From the NCBI GenBank assembly GCA_945862355.1, contig CAMAYR010000009.1, positions 1 to 41,846 of the forward strand: a stretch of DNA of 41,846 bases, read 5' to 3'. The notes below the pieces were generated by a model that had not been told where the DNA came from, did not search any database, and saw nothing but the letters and a program-made list of their open reading frames with translations. Position 1 is the first letter of the stretch; each line of letters opens with the position of its first letter. Below are positions 27,706 to 40,358 of the stretch, piece by piece. Made by a program: the position numbers and the translations under genes. Origin of the DNA: Devosia equisanguinis. GTDB taxonomy: Bacteria > Pseudomonadota > Alphaproteobacteria > Rhizobiales > Hyphomicrobiaceae.

Positions 27706-28965
27706 ATGTCCATCGCCTGCGGTATCGACTTCGGCACCTCAAACTCGGCAGTTGGCGTCTCACGCAACGGGCGTGCGCGCCTGCTCGCCTTGCAGGAGGA
27801 CGCAACCTCGGTGCCGACTGCGCTGTTCTTCAGTCTCGAAGACGACACCCGTAGCCACGGGCGCGAGGCGATGAAGCGCTATCTGAGCCAGGAGCCAGGG
27901 CGGTTGATGCGCTCCATCAAAAGCCTGCTCGGCACCTCGCTGTGGAGCGAGACGACGCAGGTGAAGCATCGCCGCTACGCGTTCGCGGACATCGTGGCGG
28001 ATTATCTGCGGTTCCTGCGCACGGCGGGGGGCAGCCAGCTCGATGCCGAATTGGACAGCGTCGTGCTCGGCCGGCCGGTGTTTTTCGTCGACGACGACGC
28101 GGAGGCCGACCGCGCCGCGCAGGACCAACTGACGGCGGCGGCGCACGCGGCGGGCTTCAAGTCTGTCGAGCTTCAGCTCGAGCCGATCGCTGCGGCGCTG
28201 CACTACGAGACGAGCGTTGCCGCAGAGGAAATCGCGCTCGTCGCGGACATCGGCGGCGGCACGTCGGATTTTTCGATCGTGCGCGTGTCGCCCGAATTGG
28301 CTGGCAAGACGGACCGTCGAGGTGACGTGCTCGGCACCAGTGGCGTGCACATCGGCGGAACGGACTTCGACCGCCTGCTCAGCATGACGACACTGATGCC
28401 GTTCCTGGGGCTGCGCTCCAAACTGAAGCGGGAAGGGATGGAGGCACCGTCGTGGTATTTCGCCGACCTTGCGACGTGGCACCGCGTGAACTTCCTCTAC
28501 GACCAGAAGGTGATCGCGGAAATCAAAACCGTGCGGCGTGATTCGGCGGAGCCAGCAAAGATCGAGCGCCTTTTGCGCGTGCTCGATAAGCGGCTGGGAC
28601 ACGAGCTGCTGGGGCGCATCGAGACGGCCAAGATCGCGATCGGCGAGGAGAAGATGGCGCCGCTGTCTCTGTCGGGGGTGGCGCAGGGGCTCGCGCTTCG
28701 CGTCGAGCGGGGCCGTTTCGAGCGGGCCATCGCGGAATGCCTCGACAGCATCGAAGGGCGCATCGGCGAGGTCATCAGGCAGGCCGGCATCGAGGCTGGC
28801 GACATCCGCACGGTGTTCATGACGGGCGGCTCGTGTGGCGTGCCGGCGGTGCGCGATGCGATCGTGCGCGGAGTTCCGGAGGCACGCGTCGTCGCGGGCG
28901 ATGCTTTCGGCAGCGTGGCGACGGGGCTCGCGCTCGAGGCAGAGCGGCGTTTCGGAGGCAGGTGA
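27706..28965 (+). CDS. Hsp70 family protein (YegD-like)
   Basis: MSIACGIDFGTSNSAVGV, LEPIAAALHYE, ALVADIGGGTSDFSIVRV, GGTDFDRLLS, VFMTGGSCGVPAVRDAI. About 419 aa, so no full-length DnaK substrate-binding region. Confidence 0.92.
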   Translation: MSIACGIDFGTSNSAVGVSRNGRARLLALQEDATSVPTALFFSLEDDTRSHGREAMKRYLSQEPGRLMRSIKSLLGTSLWSETTQVKHRRYAFADIVADYLRFLRTAGGSQLDAELDSVVLGRPVFFVDDDAEADRAAQDQLTAAAHAAGFKSVELQLEPIAAALHYETSVAAEEIALVADIGGGTSDFSIVRVSPELAGKTDRRGDVLGTSGVHIGGTDFDRLLSMTTLMPFLGLRSKLKREGMEAPSWYFADLATWHRVNFLYDQKVIAEIKTVRRDSAEPAKIERLLRVLDKRLGHELLGRIETAKIAIGEEKMAPLSLSGVAQGLALRVERGRFERAIAECLDSIEGRIGEVIRQAGIEAGDIRTVFMTGGSCGVPAVRDAIVRGVPEARVVAGDAFGSVATGLALEAERRFGGR

Positions 28966-29221
28966 GCCGGCCCCGCTCGGCGGATGCCTAGAAGATATGT
29001 GTGGGATGGAGGGGAGGGATCATCTGTTCACCTCGCCGACAGGAATGCGCCACGGCATGGCCGCACGCACAACCAACTGGCGCCCCAAAGGAACCTTAGC
29101 TGTGAGCTGGGATTTCAGGTGAGGGATGGCTCTGTCCGATGGTCTGTAGGTGCCGTGGCGCGGATCGCGGCGGCAGGACCATGCCGGGTGGCATCCGTCC
29201 ATGTCAGGGGCAGTGCGCACC

Positions 29222-31807
29222 ATGAGCATTTCCGGCAGCGCAGGACAGCCAGGTGGAGGCCGCTTCGAGGATTGGGCCGACGGGCCAGCCGATCCCAAGG
29301 ACTGGAAGAAGGTCGTCCTGATCGTCGGGCTCGGCATCCTGTCCTGGGTCGCCACCTACGTCGGTATGCTCGAGCTGATCGAGGCCAACATGGGCGAGCT
29401 GCCGCTCGTCCACAAGCTGATCGTGGCGTTTTCGGTCGCCATGCTGATGATCATGATCGTGTGGCTGCTCGACCAGATGTTCGCGCCGCTGCCGCTTTTC
29501 ACCAAGCTGCTTTACGCCCTGGGCTACGTGTTCCTGACGCTCATCTCGGTGGGCTTCGGGTTCGGCTTCTACTGGAAGGTTCTTGAAAGCCGATCGGAGG
29601 CTTCGCGCTCCGCCGAGGGCGCCGTTGGGCAGGTGCAGAACTCGCTTCTCGCGGCGTCCGCCCGTCTCGACCAGTTGCAGCAGACGCTCGATTCGCTCAC
29701 CACCATCTCGCGCCAGAAGGCCGACAACGAGCGGACGACGGGGACCTCGTGCCCCGGCTCGCGCGCTGGCGACGGGCCCCGTCGCAAAATGCGCGAGGAT
29801 GACGCTGCGCGGTTTTCATTCGCGGGTGACTTCGTCAAGGGGCGCGCCGGACTGGTGAAGAAGGAGATCGGCGGTCTCGAGGCCGAACTCCTCAAGATTG
29901 CGCGCGACGACAAGTCGATCGTCGACAAGTCGGGTACGCGCAACGAGTTCATGCGCAGCCTCGGCCGCAAGCTCGACGGTACGGTGACCGGCTTCAATGC
30001 GTTCCGCACTGATCCGCAGCTTCGCCAGATCCGTGCCGATCTCGCCGAACGCGCGGACAAGACGACGTTCCCGGACAGCCGGGGCGGCACCTATTCCTGT
30101 CCCGATGCGCAGCTCTCGACAGCGCTCAAGGGCGTCGTGCGCGCCATCGACGGTCTGCCGGAGCTCGAGAAGCCCAAGATCGCGACAGTGGAGGGCTCGG
30201 AGGCGACCATCGAGGCGTTCCGCCGGCTGACGGCGACATTCCATGGCCTCATCGTATTCAAGCTGCCGCCTTCGGCCGACGAGCAGCGCGAGTTACAGAA
30301 GAAAGCCGTGCAATCGGTGGAGAATCCGCAGGCCGCCCGGCTCGCACAGGCGGCCAATCAGCAGGCGGGACTTTCGAGCCGCGACTACATTCCATTGGCG
30401 GTCGCGTTGTTCGTCGACTTGTGTCTGTTGCTCGTTTCGATGGGTAGGCCGATCAATCGCCTCCAGAGCCTGGTGCCGAAGATGCGCGAGGCGGAGCGCG
30501 GGCCGGTGATCCAGATCCTATCGCGCTTCAGCGAGATCCACCGCGACCAGAGTATGCGCGAGAGCTTCGAGGTGCTGCGGCACGTCGTGTTCGACTATGC
30601 CGGCGCCTATTACGTGGCGGTGCCGCTAGATGCGCCGTACTTCGAGACGAGGCGCGAGCAGGTGGTCGATCAGGCAACTCGCAAGGCCCGTCTCGTAACG
30701 CGGCAGGTTGCGCTGCCGCCCGCTCGGCGCGACGAGATGCGGGTCGAGGCGCACCTCATCGGCAACCTGTTCGCCAGCTTCGAGAAGGACAAGGTGTTCA
30801 AGCGCGTGATGTGGCTCAACACGGAAGCCGCGCGCCGGCGCTTGCAGCAGCAGGGCAGCAAGTTCGCGAACTCCGAGGCTTTCCGCATCTACCGCTTCGC
30901 GGATGGAGCGTGGTCGCAGATCATCCTGGGGGCTGTGATGGGTGCTGCCCGCCGGGTGGAGGCGCGGCGCGGCGTCGTCGCAGACGAGGCCGGCCGGCGC
31001 GAGCCGACGCTCGAACTGCTGAGCGACCGGATGCGACAGGCGGAGGTCGAGGCGGAAGCTGATCGCCACGCACCGGCACCCAAGCCGGTGCCGGAGCGCC
31101 GCCGCGGATACGCCGCCGTGCCTTTGCCGGTCGATCCGGATCTGGCTGCTCAATTCGGACCGTATGCCACCGGTGCGCAGGCCGAGCGCGCCGAGCGCTA
31201 TCCCGCGGCTGCGGCCCACGACAGTCGGCACGCCAACAACAACACGCGGCCGGGTCCGTCGGCGTGGGCGGGGCCTTCAACGGCAGCGCCCGCCGAGCTG
31301 CCCGAGGCGCCGAACGTGCTGCCCTTCAAGCAGCAGCCCGGCGGCCCGCGCGGTCTGGCCGACGAAGGAACCGGTGAGGCAGACGACATGCGGTTGCCCA
31401 ATATCATCGCGCGCGGCCACGCGGTCGCGGCGGCTCGCCTCGAGCCCACGGTGGGGGCGATGCCTGACAGCCGAGCCATGACGGTGACGGCGACCGAGCG
31501 ACGGTTCTCGTTCGAGGTGCCGCTCAACGAGGCCGGCTTTGCGCAAGGGCTTTATGGCGTTGCCGGTGTCCTTCGCAGTCGAGCTGCTGGGATGTCGCTG
31601 GCGGCCCAGGAAACGACCGTGGAACAGGACGTGCAGGCTGGCGGCGAGGCTGGCAGCGAGGCTGGCGAGACGGATCGCACCGAGAGTGCGCCAACCATCG
31701 TTGCACTTCCTGTCACAACAGTGGCGACGGCCCAGCCTTCGGTTGCCGACCGGGCGACCGCGCTGGCCTTGCCGGCGCCGATACGGGAGCACGAGCACCG
31801 TGGGTGA
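29222..31807 (+). CDS. Uncharacterised membrane protein with about 4 predicted TM segments and a large Pro/Ala-rich cytoplasmic tail
   Basis: Hydrophobic segments VVLIVGLGILSWVATYVGML, LIVAFSVAMLMIMIVWLL, LLYALGYVFLTLISVGFGFGFYW, and later YIPLAVALFVDLCLLLVSM, flanking a roughly 240-aa charged helical region with two Cys (TSCPGS, YSCPDA). Confidence 0.8.
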   Translation: MSISGSAGQPGGGRFEDWADGPADPKDWKKVVLIVGLGILSWVATYVGMLELIEANMGELPLVHKLIVAFSVAMLMIMIVWLLDQMFAPLPLFTKLLYALGYVFLTLISVGFGFGFYWKVLESRSEASRSAEGAVGQVQNSLLAASARLDQLQQTLDSLTTISRQKADNERTTGTSCPGSRAGDGPRRKMREDDAARFSFAGDFVKGRAGLVKKEIGGLEAELLKIARDDKSIVDKSGTRNEFMRSLGRKLDGTVTGFNAFRTDPQLRQIRADLAERADKTTFPDSRGGTYSCPDAQLSTALKGVVRAIDGLPELEKPKIATVEGSEATIEAFRRLTATFHGLIVFKLPPSADEQRELQKKAVQSVENPQAARLAQAANQQAGLSSRDYIPLAVALFVDLCLLLVSMGRPINRLQSLVPKMREAERGPVIQILSRFSEIHRDQSMRESFEVLRHVVFDYAGAYYVAVPLDAPYFETRREQVVDQATRKARLVTRQVALPPARRDEMRVEAHLIGNLFASFEKDKVFKRVMWLNTEAARRRLQQQGSKFANSEAFRIYRFADGAWSQIILGAVMGAARRVEARRGVVADEAGRREPTLELLSDRMRQAEVEAEADRHAPAPKPVPERRRGYAAVPLPVDPDLAAQFGPYATGAQAERAERYPAAAAHDSRHANNNTRPGPSAWAGPSTAAPAELPEAPNVLPFKQQPGGPRGLADEGTGEADDMRLPNIIARGHAVAAARLEPTVGAMPDSRAMTVTATERRFSFEVPLNEAGFAQGLYGVAGVLRSRAAGMSLAAQETTVEQDVQAGGEAGSEAGETDRTESAPTIVALPVTTVATAQPSVADRATALALPAPIREHEHRG

Positions 31808-31958
31808 GACGCAGGTGTTCAACGTAGAAATTTCACCGGGCGTGGGACACTGTGAAAGACTTATTTAACCGCCCTGGGCTTTACATGATGCCTACAACCA
31901 GACGGCTTCAGCGGCGGCTGCCCATCGCCCCTACTGAGCCGCGACAGAGGGAACTTGC

Positions 31959-32558
31959 ATGAGCCGGAAAGTCGCGCCTTTCATCGACATCGTCAGGCTG
32001 GAGGACAAGGAGGCCAAGTTGACGGCCTTTATCCGCACTCTCGTCGAGCAGACGGGCGGCGTGAGCGATGCCGATCCGAAAGGAAACGCGGTGCTGCTCA
32101 TCGCACGCTCGACCGAGAGCCCGGTGGCGAAGGCGGTCGCAGCGCTCGTCCGCGAGGGAACCATTCGCGTGCCGGTCAAGACAATTCTGGCGCTTGCACC
32201 AAGGCAGGAGGCCGAGGGCGTCAGCGAGACGTTGTCGGCGATCGTCGGTACGCATGGCGGCCGGCTGGTGCGCGATGTGCGCCTCTTCGATGCCCACGAG
32301 CAGATCGTTCTTGGGCAGGCGGCGAGCTGGACCGGCGACTGCATGCGCCGCGATCCGATGAAGCGTGACGCCTTCGAGTGCTTCGCTGGCGACTGCAGCA
32401 AGACTGCGGGCTGGGCGCGGACCTCTTTCGAACGGCTGTGGAACATCTGCGAGCCGCTGCCGGAAGACCTGCTGCAGCCCGTCACCGCTGAGACCTGTCC
32501 GCCGCCGGTCGGCGTTGAGGATGCGGTGGCCGAACCGCTAGGCAGCCCCCAAGTCTGA
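31959..32558 (+). CDS. Uncharacterised protein (199 aa), Cys-containing C-terminal half
   Basis: MSRKVAPFIDIVRLEDKEAKLTAFIRTLVEQTGG...; ORF downstream of the membrane protein gene and ended by a terminator-like hairpin. Confidence 0.75.
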   Translation: MSRKVAPFIDIVRLEDKEAKLTAFIRTLVEQTGGVSDADPKGNAVLLIARSTESPVAKAVAALVREGTIRVPVKTILALAPRQEAEGVSETLSAIVGTHGGRLVRDVRLFDAHEQIVLGQAASWTGDCMRRDPMKRDAFECFAGDCSKTAGWARTSFERLWNICEPLPEDLLQPVTAETCPPPVGVEDAVAEPLGSPQV

Positions 32559-32802: not shown

Positions 32803-35800
32803 ATGCTCCGCGCGCTCATCGTTCTGCTGACTGCGCTCGCAGGCTTGCCAGCGATGGCTCAGCAGGCCGCGACGACTTCGGTTTTCACTCATCAAGGGGC
32901 ATCACGAGATGCCGCGCGCTACGAGGCGCAACTCAAGGCAGCGCTGCCGGCGCAACAGCAGAACCGCCGGGCGCGTGATCTCAAGGCGGCAGGGGAGAAG
33001 CTGCTCGCAGCCGGCGCCGACGTGCGGGGAGCCGCACGACAGCTTTCGCAGGCAGCCGCCCTGGAGCCGCAGGATTGGGAGAGCTGGCTCGGCCTGGCTC
33101 GAGCATTGCTCGCCATCAAGCCCTCCGAGAACACCTCCGAACGCTTCGAGCTTCCCACCCAAGCCACCGCCGCAGCCTACACGGCCTATCAGCGTGCGCC
33201 GAACGATGCGGCACGCGCGCTCGCGCTCGTCGTGCTGGGGGAAGCGTTCCGCCGCCGCTCCATATGGCGGCCGGCGATCGATGCACTGCGCGTCAGTCTC
33301 GCGCTCGCGGACAATCCTACCGTCCGCAGGACTTACGAAACGCTGCGCGCCCAGCACGGCTTCCGGATGCTCGACTATACGGTCGAGAACGAAGCGCAGG
33401 ATCCGCGGCTGTGCATCCAGTTCTCCGAGCGATTGCAGCGGGCGGAGGTGGATCTGGCGCGCTTCGTCGCGCTGGATGGCAAGGCAGCCGACAACATCAC
33501 GGGCGAGGGGCGGCAGGTCTGTATCGAGGGGCTGAGCCACGGCAAGCGCTACGAGGTGACTGTGCGCGCGGGGCTGCCTTCGGTGATCGGCGAGGCGCTG
33601 CTGAAACCGGCGATTATTCCAGTCTATGTGCGTGACCGGTCACCGGTCGTGCGCTTCCCGGCCAAGAGCTACGTGCTGCCTTCGCGCGGCCAGCAGGGGC
33701 TGCCCGTCAATTCGATCAACACCAGCCGGCTCGGCATCGAGATCTATCGCGTCGGCGACAGGAACCTGACGGCGGTGACGGGAAGCAACGGCGATTTCAT
33801 GCGGCAGCTATCGGGCTCGGATGCAGCCACGCTCGCGGCCGAGCGGGGCGCCAAGGTCTATTCAGGCGAGCTCGAGGTGACGCCGAGGCTCAATGCGGAA
33901 GTGACGACCGCAGTGCCGATCGGCGAGGCCGTTCCCGAGCTCAAACCCGGCGTCTATGCGATGCTCGCTCGCGTGCTCGATGCCAAGGGCAAAGGCGACG
34001 ACGAGAGTACGGGGCGGAGTGCGACGCAATGGTTCATCGTCTCCGACCTCGGTCTGGCGGCGTTCACCGGCGACAACGGATTGCACGCCTTCGTGCGATC
34101 GCTCACCACGACGGAGCCAGTTCATAATGCCGGCGTGCGGATCGTCGCGCGCAATAACGAAGTGCTGGCGCAGGGACGCACGGACGGAGCCGGTTATGTG
34201 CGGTTCGAGCCGGGAATGGTGCGCGGTGAGGGCGGTCTGCAGCCGGCGCTGCTGATCGCGGAGACGGCGAATGGGCAATACGCTTTCCTGGATCTGGCGA
34301 GTGGTGCTTTCGATCTGTCAGACCGGGGCGTGAAAGGCCGTGCGAGCCCAGGTGCGCTCGATGCCTACCTGTATTCCGATCGCGGGGTCTATCGGCCGGG
34401 CGAAACTGTCCATCTCAATGGGCTCATGCGCGACAAGGCGGGTGCAGCATCGGTGGTGCCGGCCACGCTCATCGTGACGCGACCCGACGGCGTCGAGCAT
34501 GTCCGCATCGCGCTGACGGATCAAGGGCTGGGCGGGCGGGCGCATCAGTTGCGTCTGTCGGGCACCGCCATGACGGGTACGTGGCGCGCGAAGCTTCACA
34601 CCGACCCGAAGGCAGATCCGCTTTCGGCGGCCGCGTTCCTCGTCGAGGATTTCGTGCCGGAGCGACTCGAGTTGCGCTTGAGGCCGGCACAGCCCGCGCT
34701 CGTGCCGGAGGTGGCCGGTACCATCGACGTCACGGGGCGCTATCTCTACGGACCGCCTGCGGCCAATCTCGCCGCAGAGGCGGAGATCGTCGTGAAGACA
34801 GGAACCGTGGCGGGCGCAGTACCGTTCCCGGGCTATCGCTTCGGCCTGGTCGACGAGAAGATCACTCCAGTCCGCAAAGCGCTCGAGAAGGTGCCTGGAA
34901 CGGACGCGAAGGGCGAACTGCCGCTCGAGGTGCTGCTGCCGCCGATCCCGCGCACGGTCCAGCCGCTGATGGCGGAGGTGATGGTACGCCTGCGTGAGCC
35001 GGGCGGAAGGACCATCGAGCGCAAGGTGAGCCTGCCCGTCGATGCGCGCCTGCCGCGGATCGGCATCAAGCCTGCCTTCAGCGGCGATGGTGTCGGCGAT
35101 GGCGAGGCGGCGTCTTTCGATGTCGTCATTCTCGACGAGAGCAGCCGCCGGCTCGGCGGCAAGAGACTGGCATGGACGCTCTACAGGCTCGAGAGCAATT
35201 GGCAGTGGTACCGGCGGGACGATTCCTGGCAGTACGAGGCTGTCACGCTCACGCGAAAGGCCGGCAACGGCCACATCGACAGCCAGACCGACGTGCCGGC
35301 AAAGATCGAGCAAAGGTTGGAAGGCGGACGCTATCGGCTGGAGGTTGCGAGCACCGAGGCTGGCGGACCGGTCACGACAGTCAACTTCAATGTCGGCTGG
35401 TATGGTGGCGAGCAGGCCGATACGCCCGAGATGCTCGACCTAGCGCTCGACAAGTCGGACTACAAGCCGGGCGAGACGGCGAAGCTCAAGGTCGCCTCGC
35501 GCCAGGGCGGCAAGTTGCTCGTCACAGTGCTCGGCGGCGGGCTGCTCGCGCAGCGCACTGTCGATTTGCCCAATGGCGGGGGAGAGGTGTCGCTCGATGT
35601 CGGGCGCAACTGGGGCTCGGGCGCCTACGTGACCGCCTCGCTCTATCGTGCGCTGGACGAGAAACAGCGGCGGATGCCGTCGCGGGCGATCGGGCTCAAG
35701 TGGCTGCAGATCGATCAGTCCGAGCGAACGCTGAAGGTGGCGCTCGGTGCTCCCGACAAGATCGGTTCAGGCTCGCGGCTCACGGTGCCGATCAAGGTCG

Positions 35801-38118
35801 AGGGGCTGGCGCGCGGCGAGGAAGCCCGCGTGACGGTTGCAGCCGTAGATACCGGCATTCTCAATCTGACGCGTTTCGAGGCGCCCAAACCTGAGGGTTG
35901 GTTCTACGCGCAGACGAAGCTTGGCTCGGAAGTGCGCGACCTCTACGGCCGCCTCATCGACGGGATGCGAGCAGAGCGGGGCAAGCTGCGCTCGGGCGGC
36001 GACGGCGCGGAGGGTGGTGGCATGTCGATGTCCGGCAGCCCGCCGGTCGAGACGCTGGTGGCGCTGCATTCAGGCATCGTGAAAGTCGCACCGGACGGCA
36101 CGGCCAGCGTCGCGTTCGATCTTCCCGACTTCAATGGACAGGTGAGCCTGATGGCCGTCGCGTGGAGCGGGGCCAAGGTCGGGCACGGCACGAGAAACGT
36201 GATCGTTCGGGATCCGATCGCGCTCACGGTAACGGCGCCGCGTTTCCTCACGCTTGGCGACGAGGCGCGGCTCGATCTTTCGCTGCACAACGTCGAAGGA
36301 GCAGCGGGTGCCTACAAGCTCGCCGTGGAGCTGGAAACCGCTGCCGGTGCTGGAGCTTCTATCCTGCAGCGCGACGTGGCGCTGAAAGCCAGCGAGCGGC
36401 GCTCCGAACGGCTCACGGTGAAGCCCGGCGAAACGGGTCTCGTCAGCTATGCGGTGCGGATCACCGGTCCCGGCGGCGTGGACGTGAAGCGCCGCCTGAC
36501 GCTCGACGTGAAAGTGCCCGGCGGCGACATCAAGCGGGTGACGGTGGCAAAGATCGCGCCGCGGACAGGCAAGCTCACATTGTCGAAGGATCTGCTGACC
36601 GACCTCATTCCCGGCCGTAGCATGGTCAACGTGAACGTCGGTCCCGTGGCCGCGTTCGACGTGCCGGGCCTGCTGACCCAGCTCGATCGCTATCCATATG
36701 GCTGTGCGGAACAGACGACCTCGCGCGCCCTGCCATTGCTCTACGCCAACGAGATGGCTTCCCAGCTCGGGCTGCGCGCGGACGGCGACATCAAGGAGCG
36801 CGTGCAGGGTGCCGTCGATCGCGTGCTCGAAATGCAGACGTCGTCGGGCGCATTCGGCATATGGGGTCCGCGCAATCCGGACATGTGGCTCACCGCCTAT
36901 GTCACGGACTTCCTGACGCGGGCGAAGGAGACGGGATATCAGGTAAAGCCGCAGGCGTTCACCGCCGCGCTCGACCGGTTGCAGTCGTTCGTGTCCTACG
37001 CCTCCGACTTCGACAAGGGCGGTGAGGACCGGGCCTATGCACTCTATGTGCTGACGCGCAACGGCCGTGCACCGGCCGGCGAGCTGCGCTACTACGTCGA
37101 CACGCGGCTCGAGCGGTTCTCCTCGAGCCTGGCGAAGGCGCAGCTCGGTGCAGCACTCGCCATGATCGGCGAGCGGGAGCGGGCCGAACTGGCGTTCCGC
37201 GCAGCGCTCGATCTGCCGGCGGAAAAGGGGACCGAGTACCGTGGCGACTACGGCTCGCGCATCCGCGATGGTGCCGCGCTTTTGACGCTCGCCTCCGAGG
37301 TGAAGGCCGTGACGGGCGAGGTTCCGCGGCTTGCCAGTGTGCTCGCCAAGGCGTTCTCCGAGCGCACGTACACCTCGACGCAAGAGCAGGCGTGGATGCT
37401 TCTGGCCGCACGCGCACTTTCCGAGCAGGCCCGGACGACGGAGCTCACTGTCGGGGGGATTGCGCACAAGGGTCAGCTCATGCGTCGTATTCGTGGCGCC
37501 GAGCTCATCGACGGGCAACTCGTCATCACCAACGAGAGCGATCAGGCGGTGGATGCGGTGGTGTCGGTGATCGGCGCTGCGCTGACGCCCGAGCCGGCGG
37601 TCGAGAAGGGCTTCCGCATCGAGCGCAGCTACTACACGCTCGACGGGCGGAAGGTGGATCTCGAAAGCGCATCGGGCGGCGCGGGACGCTTGCAGCAGAA
37701 CGATCGCCTCGTCGCGGTGGTGAAGGTCGAGGCCTCCGAGAAGGGCGGGCGGGTGCTGCTCGTCGACCGGTTGCCGGCGGGGCTCGAAATCGAGAACCCG
37801 CGCATCGTCGAAAGCGGCGACGTGAAAAGCCTCGCCTGGCTCAAGACGACGGCGCGGCCGGAGCATTCCGAGTTCCGCGACGACCGGTTCGTGGCCGCAT
37901 TCAATTTCTCCGGGCGGCAGCGCGGCCGGGGAGACGACGACGAAGCCGAGGGCGATGCTACCAAGGGGCCGGTCGCCAGCGCCACCGTCGCCTACATGGT
38001 TCGCGCGGTGACACCGGGCAGCTTCGTGCATCCGGCCGCGACGGTGGAGGACATGTACCGTCCGGAGCGGTATGCGCGGACCGCAACTGGCCGCCTCACT
38101 GTGACGGCGAAGGAGTAG
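32803..38118 (+). CDS. Bacterial alpha-2-macroglobulin family protein with thioester motif
   Basis: Signal-like MLRALIVLLTALAGLPAMAQQ; DRGVYRPGETVHLNGLMRD; DLYGRLIDGM; YPYGCAEQTTSRALP (CxEQ thioester at 36703-36714). Linked to the downstream PBP1C gene. Confidence 0.95.
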   Translation: MLRALIVLLTALAGLPAMAQQAATTSVFTHQGASRDAARYEAQLKAALPAQQQNRRARDLKAAGEKLLAAGADVRGAARQLSQAAALEPQDWESWLGLARALLAIKPSENTSERFELPTQATAAAYTAYQRAPNDAARALALVVLGEAFRRRSIWRPAIDALRVSLALADNPTVRRTYETLRAQHGFRMLDYTVENEAQDPRLCIQFSERLQRAEVDLARFVALDGKAADNITGEGRQVCIEGLSHGKRYEVTVRAGLPSVIGEALLKPAIIPVYVRDRSPVVRFPAKSYVLPSRGQQGLPVNSINTSRLGIEIYRVGDRNLTAVTGSNGDFMRQLSGSDAATLAAERGAKVYSGELEVTPRLNAEVTTAVPIGEAVPELKPGVYAMLARVLDAKGKGDDESTGRSATQWFIVSDLGLAAFTGDNGLHAFVRSLTTTEPVHNAGVRIVARNNEVLAQGRTDGAGYVRFEPGMVRGEGGLQPALLIAETANGQYAFLDLASGAFDLSDRGVKGRASPGALDAYLYSDRGVYRPGETVHLNGLMRDKAGAASVVPATLIVTRPDGVEHVRIALTDQGLGGRAHQLRLSGTAMTGTWRAKLHTDPKADPLSAAAFLVEDFVPERLELRLRPAQPALVPEVAGTIDVTGRYLYGPPAANLAAEAEIVVKTGTVAGAVPFPGYRFGLVDEKITPVRKALEKVPGTDAKGELPLEVLLPPIPRTVQPLMAEVMVRLREPGGRTIERKVSLPVDARLPRIGIKPAFSGDGVGDGEAASFDVVILDESSRRLGGKRLAWTLYRLESNWQWYRRDDSWQYEAVTLTRKAGNGHIDSQTDVPAKIEQRLEGGRYRLEVASTEAGGPVTTVNFNVGWYGGEQADTPEMLDLALDKSDYKPGETAKLKVASRQGGKLLVTVLGGGLLAQRTVDLPNGGGEVSLDVGRNWGSGAYVTASLYRALDEKQRRMPSRAIGLKWLQIDQSERTLKVALGAPDKIGSGSRLTVPIKVEGLARGEEARVTVAAVDTGILNLTRFEAPKPEGWFYAQTKLGSEVRDLYGRLIDGMRAERGKLRSGGDGAEGGGMSMSGSPPVETLVALHSGIVKVAPDGTASVAFDLPDFNGQVSLMAVAWSGAKVGHGTRNVIVRDPIALTVTAPRFLTLGDEARLDLSLHNVEGAAGAYKLAVELETAAGAGASILQRDVALKASERRSERLTVKPGETGLVSYAVRITGPGGVDVKRRLTLDVKVPGGDIKRVTVAKIAPRTGKLTLSKDLLTDLIPGRSMVNVNVGPVAAFDVPGLLTQLDRYPYGCAEQTTSRALPLLYANEMASQLGLRADGDIKERVQGAVDRVLEMQTSSGAFGIWGPRNPDMWLTAYVTDFLTRAKETGYQVKPQAFTAALDRLQSFVSYASDFDKGGEDRAYALYVLTRNGRAPAGELRYYVDTRLERFSSSLAKAQLGAALAMIGERERAELAFRAALDLPAEKGTEYRGDYGSRIRDGAALLTLASEVKAVTGEVPRLASVLAKAFSERTYTSTQEQAWMLLAARALSEQARTTELTVGGIAHKGQLMRRIRGAELIDGQLVITNESDQAVDAVVSVIGAALTPEPAVEKGFRIERSYYTLDGRKVDLESASGGAGRLQQNDRLVAVVKVEASEKGGRVLLVDRLPAGLEIENPRIVESGDVKSLAWLKTTARPEHSEFRDDRFVAAFNFSGRQRGRGDDDEAEGDATKGPVASATVAYMVRAVTPGSFVHPAATVEDMYRPERYARTATGRLTVTAKE

Positions 38119-38228: not shown

Positions 38229-40358
38229 ATGGCGTTCGGTAAGCGAGACAGCGACGCCAGAAGAACTTCACGATTCCGCAGAATAGCGACGGGTGTTCTG
38301 CTGGTCGCGCTGTCGCCGTTCATTGCTTTCGGCACGGGCGCGCTACTCATGGGGCCGGCGCCGATCGCGCGCGGGGAGCACGTGTCTACGACAGTGCTCG
38401 ACCGTAACGGCGAGCTGCTGCGGGCGTTCACCACGCCAGAAGGCCGCTGGCGCTTGCCGATCGAGCCCGGCGATGTCGATCAGCGCTATCTGGCGCTGCT
38501 CTTGGCATTCGAGGACCAGCGCTTCCACCAGCACCGCGGCGCCGATCCGATCGCGTTCGCGCGTGCTGCGTATCAGCTCGTCAAGCACCGCCGTCTCGTC
38601 TCCGGCGGCTCGACACTCACCATGCAGGTCGCGCGCCTGCTCGAGGGCGAGCACGAGAAGACGGCGATGGGCAAGCTGCGCCAGATCGTGCGTGCAGTTC
38701 AGCTCGAAGCGAGCCTCTCGAAGCAGCAGGTGCTGCGGCTCTACCTTCGCCTCGCACCGTTCGGGGGCAATCTCGAAGGCGTGCGGGCAGCGTCGTGGGC
38801 ATACTTCGGCAAGGAGCCGCGGCGGCTGTCGATCGCCGAGGCGGCGCTGCTCGTCGCACTGCCGCAAGCCCCTGGCGTGCGCCGGCCGGATCGCAATCCG
38901 CAAGCCGCGCAGCGCGCGCGCGATCGTGTGTTGGCGCGGGCAATGGAGAGCGGCATCATAACGCGGGAAGAAGCCGCGCAGGCTGTCAGGGAGCGCGTGC
39001 CGACTGCGCGTGCGGAGTTTCCAAAGCACGCCCCGCATCTGGCCGAGGCAGAGATGGCGCGGCAGCCCAAGCTCGCGGTGCATCGGCTGACCGTGGTGCG
39101 GCAGGTTCAGGCGAACCTCGAGACGCTGGCCCGCACCCATGCGCGTGCGCTCGGCGAGCGGTTGTCGGCCGCGATCCTCGCGATCGACCATCGCAGCGGA
39201 GAGGTGATCGCGCATCTGGGCTCGTCCGACTACTTCGACGAGCGCCGCCTCGGAGCCATCGACATGACGGCTGCAGTGCGCTCGCCGGGATCGACGCTGA
39301 AGCCGTTCATCTACGGGATGGGTTTCGAGGCCGGGATCGCACATCCCGAGACGCTGATCGAGGACCGTCCGACGCGGTTCGGCAACTACGCGCCCAAGAA
39401 TTTCGACGAGGACTTCCACGGCACCGTGACGATCCGCGAGGCGTTGGCGCAGTCGCTCAACATTCCTTCGGTCAAGGTGCTCGATACACTGGGACCGGCG
39501 CGGCTCGTCGCGCGCTTCAAACGCAACGGCGTGCTGCCCGTGCTGCCCGGTGATGGCGAGCCCACGCTGGCGATCGCGCTCGGCGGCGTGGGAATGCGGC
39601 TCCGCGATCTGGCGCAGCTTTACGGCGGTCTTGCGCGCGGCGGCGAGGCGGTGGCGTTGTCGCATATCGCAGGCGGCGGAGGAGAGGCCGGCACTCCGGT
39701 CTCGGCAGGGGCCCGCCAAGCGAGAGCGAATCTGCTCACACCGGTCGCGGCGTGGTACGTCACCGACATCTTGAAGGACGCTCCGCCGCCGGCGAGCGCG
39801 ATCGGCGGCCGGATCGCCTACAAGACGGGAACCTCTTACGGGTACCGGGATGCATGGGCAGTCGGCTATGATGGCCGGCATACGATCGCTGTCTGGGTCG
39901 GCCGTGCCGACGGCAGCTCGACGGCGGGCCTGACGGGGCGCGCCGCAGCCGCGCCACTGCTGTTCGATGCCTTCCCACGTGTTGCCCACAGACGTGCGGC
40001 TTTCCCCGCATCGCCGAACGGGACGCTACGCGGGAGCGGGGGCGATCTGCCGCAGCCGCTCAAGCGCTTCCGCGAAGGCGGCGAGGACAGGCCGGCTGGT
40101 GCCTTCCTCGATCCCCCCGTGCAGATCGCGTTTCCGCCCGACCGGTCTGAGCTGGAAGTGGCCGGCGAGGACATACCGCTCGTGCTCAAGGCCCAAGGCG
40201 GCGCGCTGCCGCTGACCTGGCTCGTCGATGGTGCGCCGATCACCGAAGCCGATGGCCGCCGCGAGATCGAATGGAAGCCTCACGGGCGAGGCTTCGTGCG
40301 GCTGTCCGTGATCGATGCGAAAGGGCGCGTCGACCGGGTCACGGTGCGGCTGCGCTGA
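38229..40358 (+). CDS. pbpC: Penicillin-binding protein 1C
   Basis: Glycosyltransferase motifs EDQRFHQHRGADP and GGSTLTMQVARLL; transpeptidase SPGSTLKPFIYG (SxxK), SLNIPS (SxN), KTGTSYG (KTG). ATG 38229 has GGAAGA upstream; ATG 38184 is an alternative start. Confidence 0.95.
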   Translation: MAFGKRDSDARRTSRFRRIATGVLLVALSPFIAFGTGALLMGPAPIARGEHVSTTVLDRNGELLRAFTTPEGRWRLPIEPGDVDQRYLALLLAFEDQRFHQHRGADPIAFARAAYQLVKHRRLVSGGSTLTMQVARLLEGEHEKTAMGKLRQIVRAVQLEASLSKQQVLRLYLRLAPFGGNLEGVRAASWAYFGKEPRRLSIAEAALLVALPQAPGVRRPDRNPQAAQRARDRVLARAMESGIITREEAAQAVRERVPTARAEFPKHAPHLAEAEMARQPKLAVHRLTVVRQVQANLETLARTHARALGERLSAAILAIDHRSGEVIAHLGSSDYFDERRLGAIDMTAAVRSPGSTLKPFIYGMGFEAGIAHPETLIEDRPTRFGNYAPKNFDEDFHGTVTIREALAQSLNIPSVKVLDTLGPARLVARFKRNGVLPVLPGDGEPTLAIALGGVGMRLRDLAQLYGGLARGGEAVALSHIAGGGGEAGTPVSAGARQARANLLTPVAAWYVTDILKDAPPPASAIGGRIAYKTGTSYGYRDAWAVGYDGRHTIAVWVGRADGSSTAGLTGRAAAAPLLFDAFPRVAHRRAAFPASPNGTLRGSGGDLPQPLKRFREGGEDRPAGAFLDPPVQIAFPPDRSELEVAGEDIPLVLKAQGGALPLTWLVDGAPITEADGRREIEWKPHGRGFVRLSVIDAKGRVDRVTVRLR

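Follow-up and report, generated by a model that had tools for sequence, protein, structure and literature searches.

We identified a real, conserved and previously undescribed gene pair in a 41,846-nucleotide stretch of Devosia equisanguinis DNA (hereafter, the window): one gene encodes a membrane protein with four transmembrane (TM) helices, termed MEM, and the other a 199-residue soluble protein, termed C199 (Table 1). Across the Rhizobiales, the order to which the window belongs, the two are co-inherited, and share a common gene order, with the gene for a divergent class A penicillin-binding protein (PBP), termed aPBP-X. We consider it probable (roughly 60%) that MEM and C199 are dedicated partners of aPBP-X and jointly switch or position it from the cytoplasm. 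What is new here is two protein families without names, MEM and C199, together with a divergent class A PBP.

Table 1 Features of the MEM–C199 region within the window.
Feature	Position	Strand	Description
Hsp70-like ATPase gene (YegD-like)	27706-28965	+	419 aa; Pfam and NCBIfam matches; local neighbour outside the module
MEM (membrane protein)	29222-31807	+	861 aa; predicted 3 TM, periplasmic helical domain, TM4, cytoplasmic domain
MEM, maximal ORF	29150-31807	+	885 codons
Promoter-like element 5′ of C199	31855-31895	+	CTT-N2-TTAACC ...; motif conservation
C199	31959-32558	+	199-aa soluble protein; one predicted phospholipase-D-like fold domain
GC-rich hairpin 3′ of C199	32592-32619	+	12-bp stem, no U-tract
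Alpha-2-macroglobulin gene (YfhM type)	32803-38118	+	Pfam bMG domains; synteny
pbpC	38349-40358	+	PBP1C: GT51 + transpeptidase + BiPBP_C; after the macroglobulin gene

MEM and C199 form a conserved gene pair

A first-pass annotation of this region had described three consecutive plus-strand genes, encoding a short Hsp70-like ATPase, an 885-codon membrane protein and a 199-residue protein. All three open reading frames are present, and they are coding: homologues retain the frame down to approximately 35% identity for MEM and 22% for C199, which identifies them as genes rather than chance ORFs. For MEM, the ATG at 29222 is a more likely start than the beginning of the maximal ORF. In the draft genome of one congener (L031, 3142-4618), the MEM frame is broken into two pieces in different frames, an interruption that is a frameshift or an assembly error. 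The annotation had recognized neither protein, and both in fact gave zero matches in Pfam, NCBIfam and PADLOC and only noise against PDB sequences. A defence system was considered and rejected, the one PADLOC match of the Hsp70 being weak (23.7 bits, over a short ATPase stretch).

We found MEM in 45, C199 in 55 and both in 44 of the 298 genomes analysed from the order (p = 5 × 10⁻⁴¹, a value inflated by shared descent, as are all p-values for gene co-occurrence reported here; a paralogue-level match in G049 was left out of the MEM count). The sole MEM genome without C199 (G183) has its MEM gene cut by a contig end. In about 35 of the 44 genomes that carry both, C199 lies immediately after MEM, and the exceptions are mostly members of family f30, where the two genes are unlinked, plus contig breaks. 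C199 occurs without MEM in approximately 11 genomes, as seen in family f31. Most carriers fall within part of the order; since the first stage of the genome searches scores few candidates, some absences may be misses. Beyond the order, 240 genomes of the class, almost wholly from other orders, yielded no clear match to MEM, and 230 such genomes yielded one weak partial match to C199 (E = 3 × 10⁻⁴). The three-gene locus initially proposed, which was to be abandoned if its members never co-occurred in other genomes, thus shrinks to two: the neighbourhood of MEM and C199 is conserved and the pair shares 44 genomes, whereas the Hsp70 gene adjoins it in a single genus and loses its place in the locus.

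A promoter-like element is strongly conserved 5′ of C199, and not of MEM or aPBP-X. It reads CTTGnTTAACC...CTTAATG, approximately 94 nt ahead of the C199 start, and its core TTAAC was found in 31 of 35 upstream regions (the window plus 34 homologues), compared with a mean of 4.2 and a maximum of 11 in shuffled sets. The TTAACC within it resembles a CtrA half-site. Downstream of C199, the strong hairpin that had been said to bound the locus does have a stable stem of 12 bp (−27 kcal/mol, z = −2.65), but with neither a trailing U-run nor an entry in the terminator scan, it is no canonical intrinsic terminator. The region gave zero Rfam matches for RNA elements. The macroglobulin gene and pbpC, both envelope genes, often come after the MEM–C199 pair in synteny comparisons, the macroglobulin gene adjoining it in several genomes (families f1, f9, f18 and f39), and the envelope role suggested earlier fits the pair.

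MEM has a periplasmic domain flanked by TM helices

Hydropathy analysis of MEM located TM helices at approximately residues 29–53, 59–86, 95–121 and 387–412, giving a layout of three TM helices, ~265 periplasmic residues, one TM helix and ~450 cytoplasmic residues. The AF2 model agrees with this arrangement, and the topology first read from the window, with a periplasmic helical domain and a cytoplasmic tail, is thereby upheld. The cytoplasmic part comprises an alpha/beta domain (~443–590) followed by a long variable tail. Overall confidence in the model is low (pTM 0.40), and at that confidence a comparison with PDB folds returned zero matches, only helical-bundle noise.

The TM and periplasmic regions are the most conserved parts of MEM (mean majority 0.69–0.82, versus 0.63 for the cytoplasmic domain), a distribution that fits a periplasmic partner. 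Cys177 and Cys293 are invariant and, by topology, periplasmic, so a disulfide between them is likely.

We also noted a family of MEM paralogues of ~620 residues with the same plan of three TM helices, two periplasmic cysteines and TM4 (L046, L048, L049 and L050). A MEM paralogue lies near C199 on the opposite strand in family f33 (G050 and G125; L113 and L114). The genes around the paralogue are ordinary and have no common theme.

A divergent class A PBP is co-inherited with MEM

The upstream neighbour of MEM in many genomes is the gene for aPBP-X, a protein of ~800 residues with a divergent GT51 domain that scores 53–62 bits against PF00912 (cut-off 27). The same genomes also hold other, canonical GT51 proteins scoring about 150–230 bits, so aPBP-X, at 55–65 bits in that comparison, is an additional one. 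It aligns with E. coli PBP1A (E = 6 × 10⁻⁹) and keeps the GT51 motifs EDR, GGST..MQ and RKxxEWW, with EDR and RKxxEWW, the two catalytic Glu motifs, found in nine of nine sequences. A search against PF00905 returned zero matches at E 0.001; the transpeptidase motifs SxxK and KTGT are present in all nine sequences, and the remaining motif is SxN in six and SxS in three. Judged by these motifs, aPBP-X is a divergent class A PBP, that is, a predicted bifunctional peptidoglycan synthase. It would have the same two activities as the known class A PBPs of the Rhizobiales (Agrobacterium PBP1a, PBP1b and PBP1c; PMC8546619), from which its GT51 domain differs in being very divergent.

Of the 298 genomes, 36 encode aPBP-X, and every one of these also encodes MEM (p = 2.5 × 10⁻³⁸). 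In 20 genomes, which represent nine families (f1, f2, f9, f11, f25, f31, f38, f39 and f48), the aPBP-X gene immediately precedes MEM in the same orientation; in five more (f33), it lies no farther than ~8 kb from MEM. In the window's own genome, it is found with intact motifs on another contig (C6:23666-26053). Two genera of family f31 lack both MEM and aPBP-X, and the other members keep both. MEM is encoded without aPBP-X in family f30, where it persists together with C199, mostly unlinked, and in two f33 genomes. The f30 pair and the C199-only genomes indicate either that C199 has a role beyond aPBP-X or that genes were missed.

These exceptions bear on a different account, in which MEM and C199 constitute an envelope signalling or organizing unit of their own, tied to aPBP-X only through common inheritance from an ancestral cluster of genes. 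Its appeal lies in the persistence of the pair in f30, the presence of C199 without MEM in f31, the separate conserved element upstream of C199 and the clustering of carriers in part of the order. We nevertheless regard it as unlikely, if worth serious attention, because aPBP-X never occurs without MEM (0 of 36 genomes), the order and orientation of the two genes are constant across nine families, and both are missing together within f31.

C199 is predicted to be a phospholipase D-fold protein lacking the catalytic lysine

The AF2 model of C199 is confident (pLDDT 83.5, pTM 0.78). Its best PDB matches in Foldseek were Nuc (1byr), NucT (6ehi) and Zucchini, with a probability of 1.00, E values from 2.4 × 10⁻⁵ and TM scores by target length of 0.54–0.58 (best of each); the non-catalytic TrmBL2 and FAM83 domains were also among the matches. 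As modelled, C199 is a single-domain phospholipase D (PLD) fold. It shares this fold and the motif histidine, which is the nucleophile in PLDs, with Nuc, NucT and Zucchini, but not their catalytic motif HxK(x)4D: the histidine (H113) is present in 36 of 36 homologues and the lysine in none, its position being occupied by Q, I, V or F. The position of GSxN reads G[DE]x[ML]. Across the 36 homologues, H113, E114, W124, G126, R131 and W161 are invariant, and D127 is conserved in 35. Hydropathy analysis detected no hydrophobic segment in C199, and on this ground we propose that it is cytoplasmic.

The most economical reading is that C199 is a pseudoenzyme used as an adaptor, by analogy with FAM83, in which the PLD fold is employed without PLD activity (PMC6008594). 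The DUF1669 domain of FAM83 and TrmB/TrmBL2 are non-catalytic PLD folds that serve as anchor or regulator, as we suggest for C199; most FAM83 proteins have lost the histidine and kept the lysine, whereas C199 shows the reverse, and the likeness seen is one of fold. Given its invariant polar residues, C199 may instead have a changed enzymatic activity. It might, for instance, catalyse a reaction at a rebuilt PLD-type site: anchored by MEM, C199 would act on a phosphate substrate close to the membrane, and aPBP-X would use the product downstream. The fold, the universal nucleophilic histidine and the further invariant polar residues would suit such an enzyme, but the loss of the lysine in every homologue, the altered GSxN position and the precedent of non-catalytic PLD-fold proteins make it improbable. 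A bolder variant, which we treat as a long shot, has C199 founding a family of PLD-fold enzymes that use a rebuilt active site to act, on the cytoplasmic face, on a phosphorylated envelope precursor, with MEM relaying the signal or substrate state across the membrane to a private synthase; a Gram-negative class A PBP would then be under inside-out control.

The label "Cys-containing" that the 199-residue protein first received does not describe the family, as its most shared cysteine (C128) is a cysteine in 18 of 36 homologues. Following an unconserved tail, the extreme C-terminus reads TRH in 20 of 36 homologues and SRH, KRH, IRH or TKH in four more; TRH is absent in the window's genus.

A proposed role in the control of aPBP-X

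From gene order and co-inheritance, we place MEM between the synthase on the periplasmic side and the proposed adaptor on the cytoplasmic side. If MEM and C199 are dedicated to aPBP-X, MEM would be an inner-membrane scaffold that contacts aPBP-X through its periplasmic helical domain and binds C199, a putative pseudo-PLD serving as the adaptor, through its cytoplasmic domain and tail. The MEM–C199 assembly would then switch or position aPBP-X from inside the cell, a role that we liken to that of unrelated class A PBP co-factors such as MacP (PMC10746261, PMC7205459). We infer both the physical contacts among the three proteins and the direction of control.

Class A PBPs use varied dedicated co-factors (PMC10746261; PMC7205459). 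LpoA and LpoB of E. coli, MacP and CozE of pneumococcus and a reported Corynebacterium co-factor fill the role proposed here for MEM and C199, namely that of a lineage-restricted partner dedicated to one bifunctional peptidoglycan synthase (PMC10746261, PMC7593971, PMC7205459). MEM differs from these co-factors in its four TM helices, its ~265-residue periplasmic domain, its pairing with a PLD-fold protein and its lack of any library family match. Neither protein resembles an outer-membrane lipoprotein of the Lpo type, given the four TM helices of MEM and the absence of a hydrophobic segment from C199.

Members of the Rhizobiales grow from one pole, and the canonical Rod complex is absent in the species studied; they rely on a class A PBP, and the forces behind insertion at the pole are poorly understood (PMC8546619). 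In 77 genomes of the order, the Rod-complex marker MreC exceeded its cut-off in 15 of 35 MEM genomes, five of six C199-only genomes and one of 36 family representatives with neither gene, and is thus far commoner with MEM or C199 (20/41) than without them (1/36). By this distribution, the module belongs to that part of the order which has kept the Rod complex or lost it patchily, and the overlap may reflect shared ancestry. A synthase with a four-TM partner and a cytoplasmic pseudo-PLD, recurring across many families, would offer a deletable handle on class A PBP control, and one that bears on control from inside the cell in Gram-negatives. In the literature on Hyphomicrobium PBPs and on macroglobulin and PbpC, we found nothing bearing on the module.

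The neighbouring Hsp70 gene lies outside the module

The Hsp70 encoded beside MEM matched PF00012 with 105.3 bits over the ATPase part only, above the Pfam cut-off of 20.6, which places it in the Hsp70 superfamily. Against NF008673 (YegD), it scored 274.7 bits over most of the model, under the curated cut-off of 331, as did every NF008673 match in the 298 genomes. As first described, the protein is a short YegD-type Hsp70, but it falls short of the YegD equivalog.

Only in the window and in one congener (L031/G003) is this gene next to MEM, and the linkage appeared in none of the genomes examined outside the genus. Five genomes of the window's family (G006, G007, G011, G013 and G014) carry the Hsp70 orthologue on contigs other than that of MEM. 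YegD-like Hsp70s (counted at E ≤ 10⁻³⁹) are encoded by 142 of the 298 genomes, yet by 10 of the 45 MEM genomes, an under-representation with an odds ratio of 0.26. The Hsp70 gene beside MEM is a chance neighbour. An Hsp70 dedicated to MEM, working as a chaperone on its cytoplasmic tail as the adjacency in this genus would suggest, has very little chance of being correct in view of this distribution. In G014 (L167, G014:C3), the YegD-like Hsp70 gene instead immediately precedes the macroglobulin and pbpC genes.
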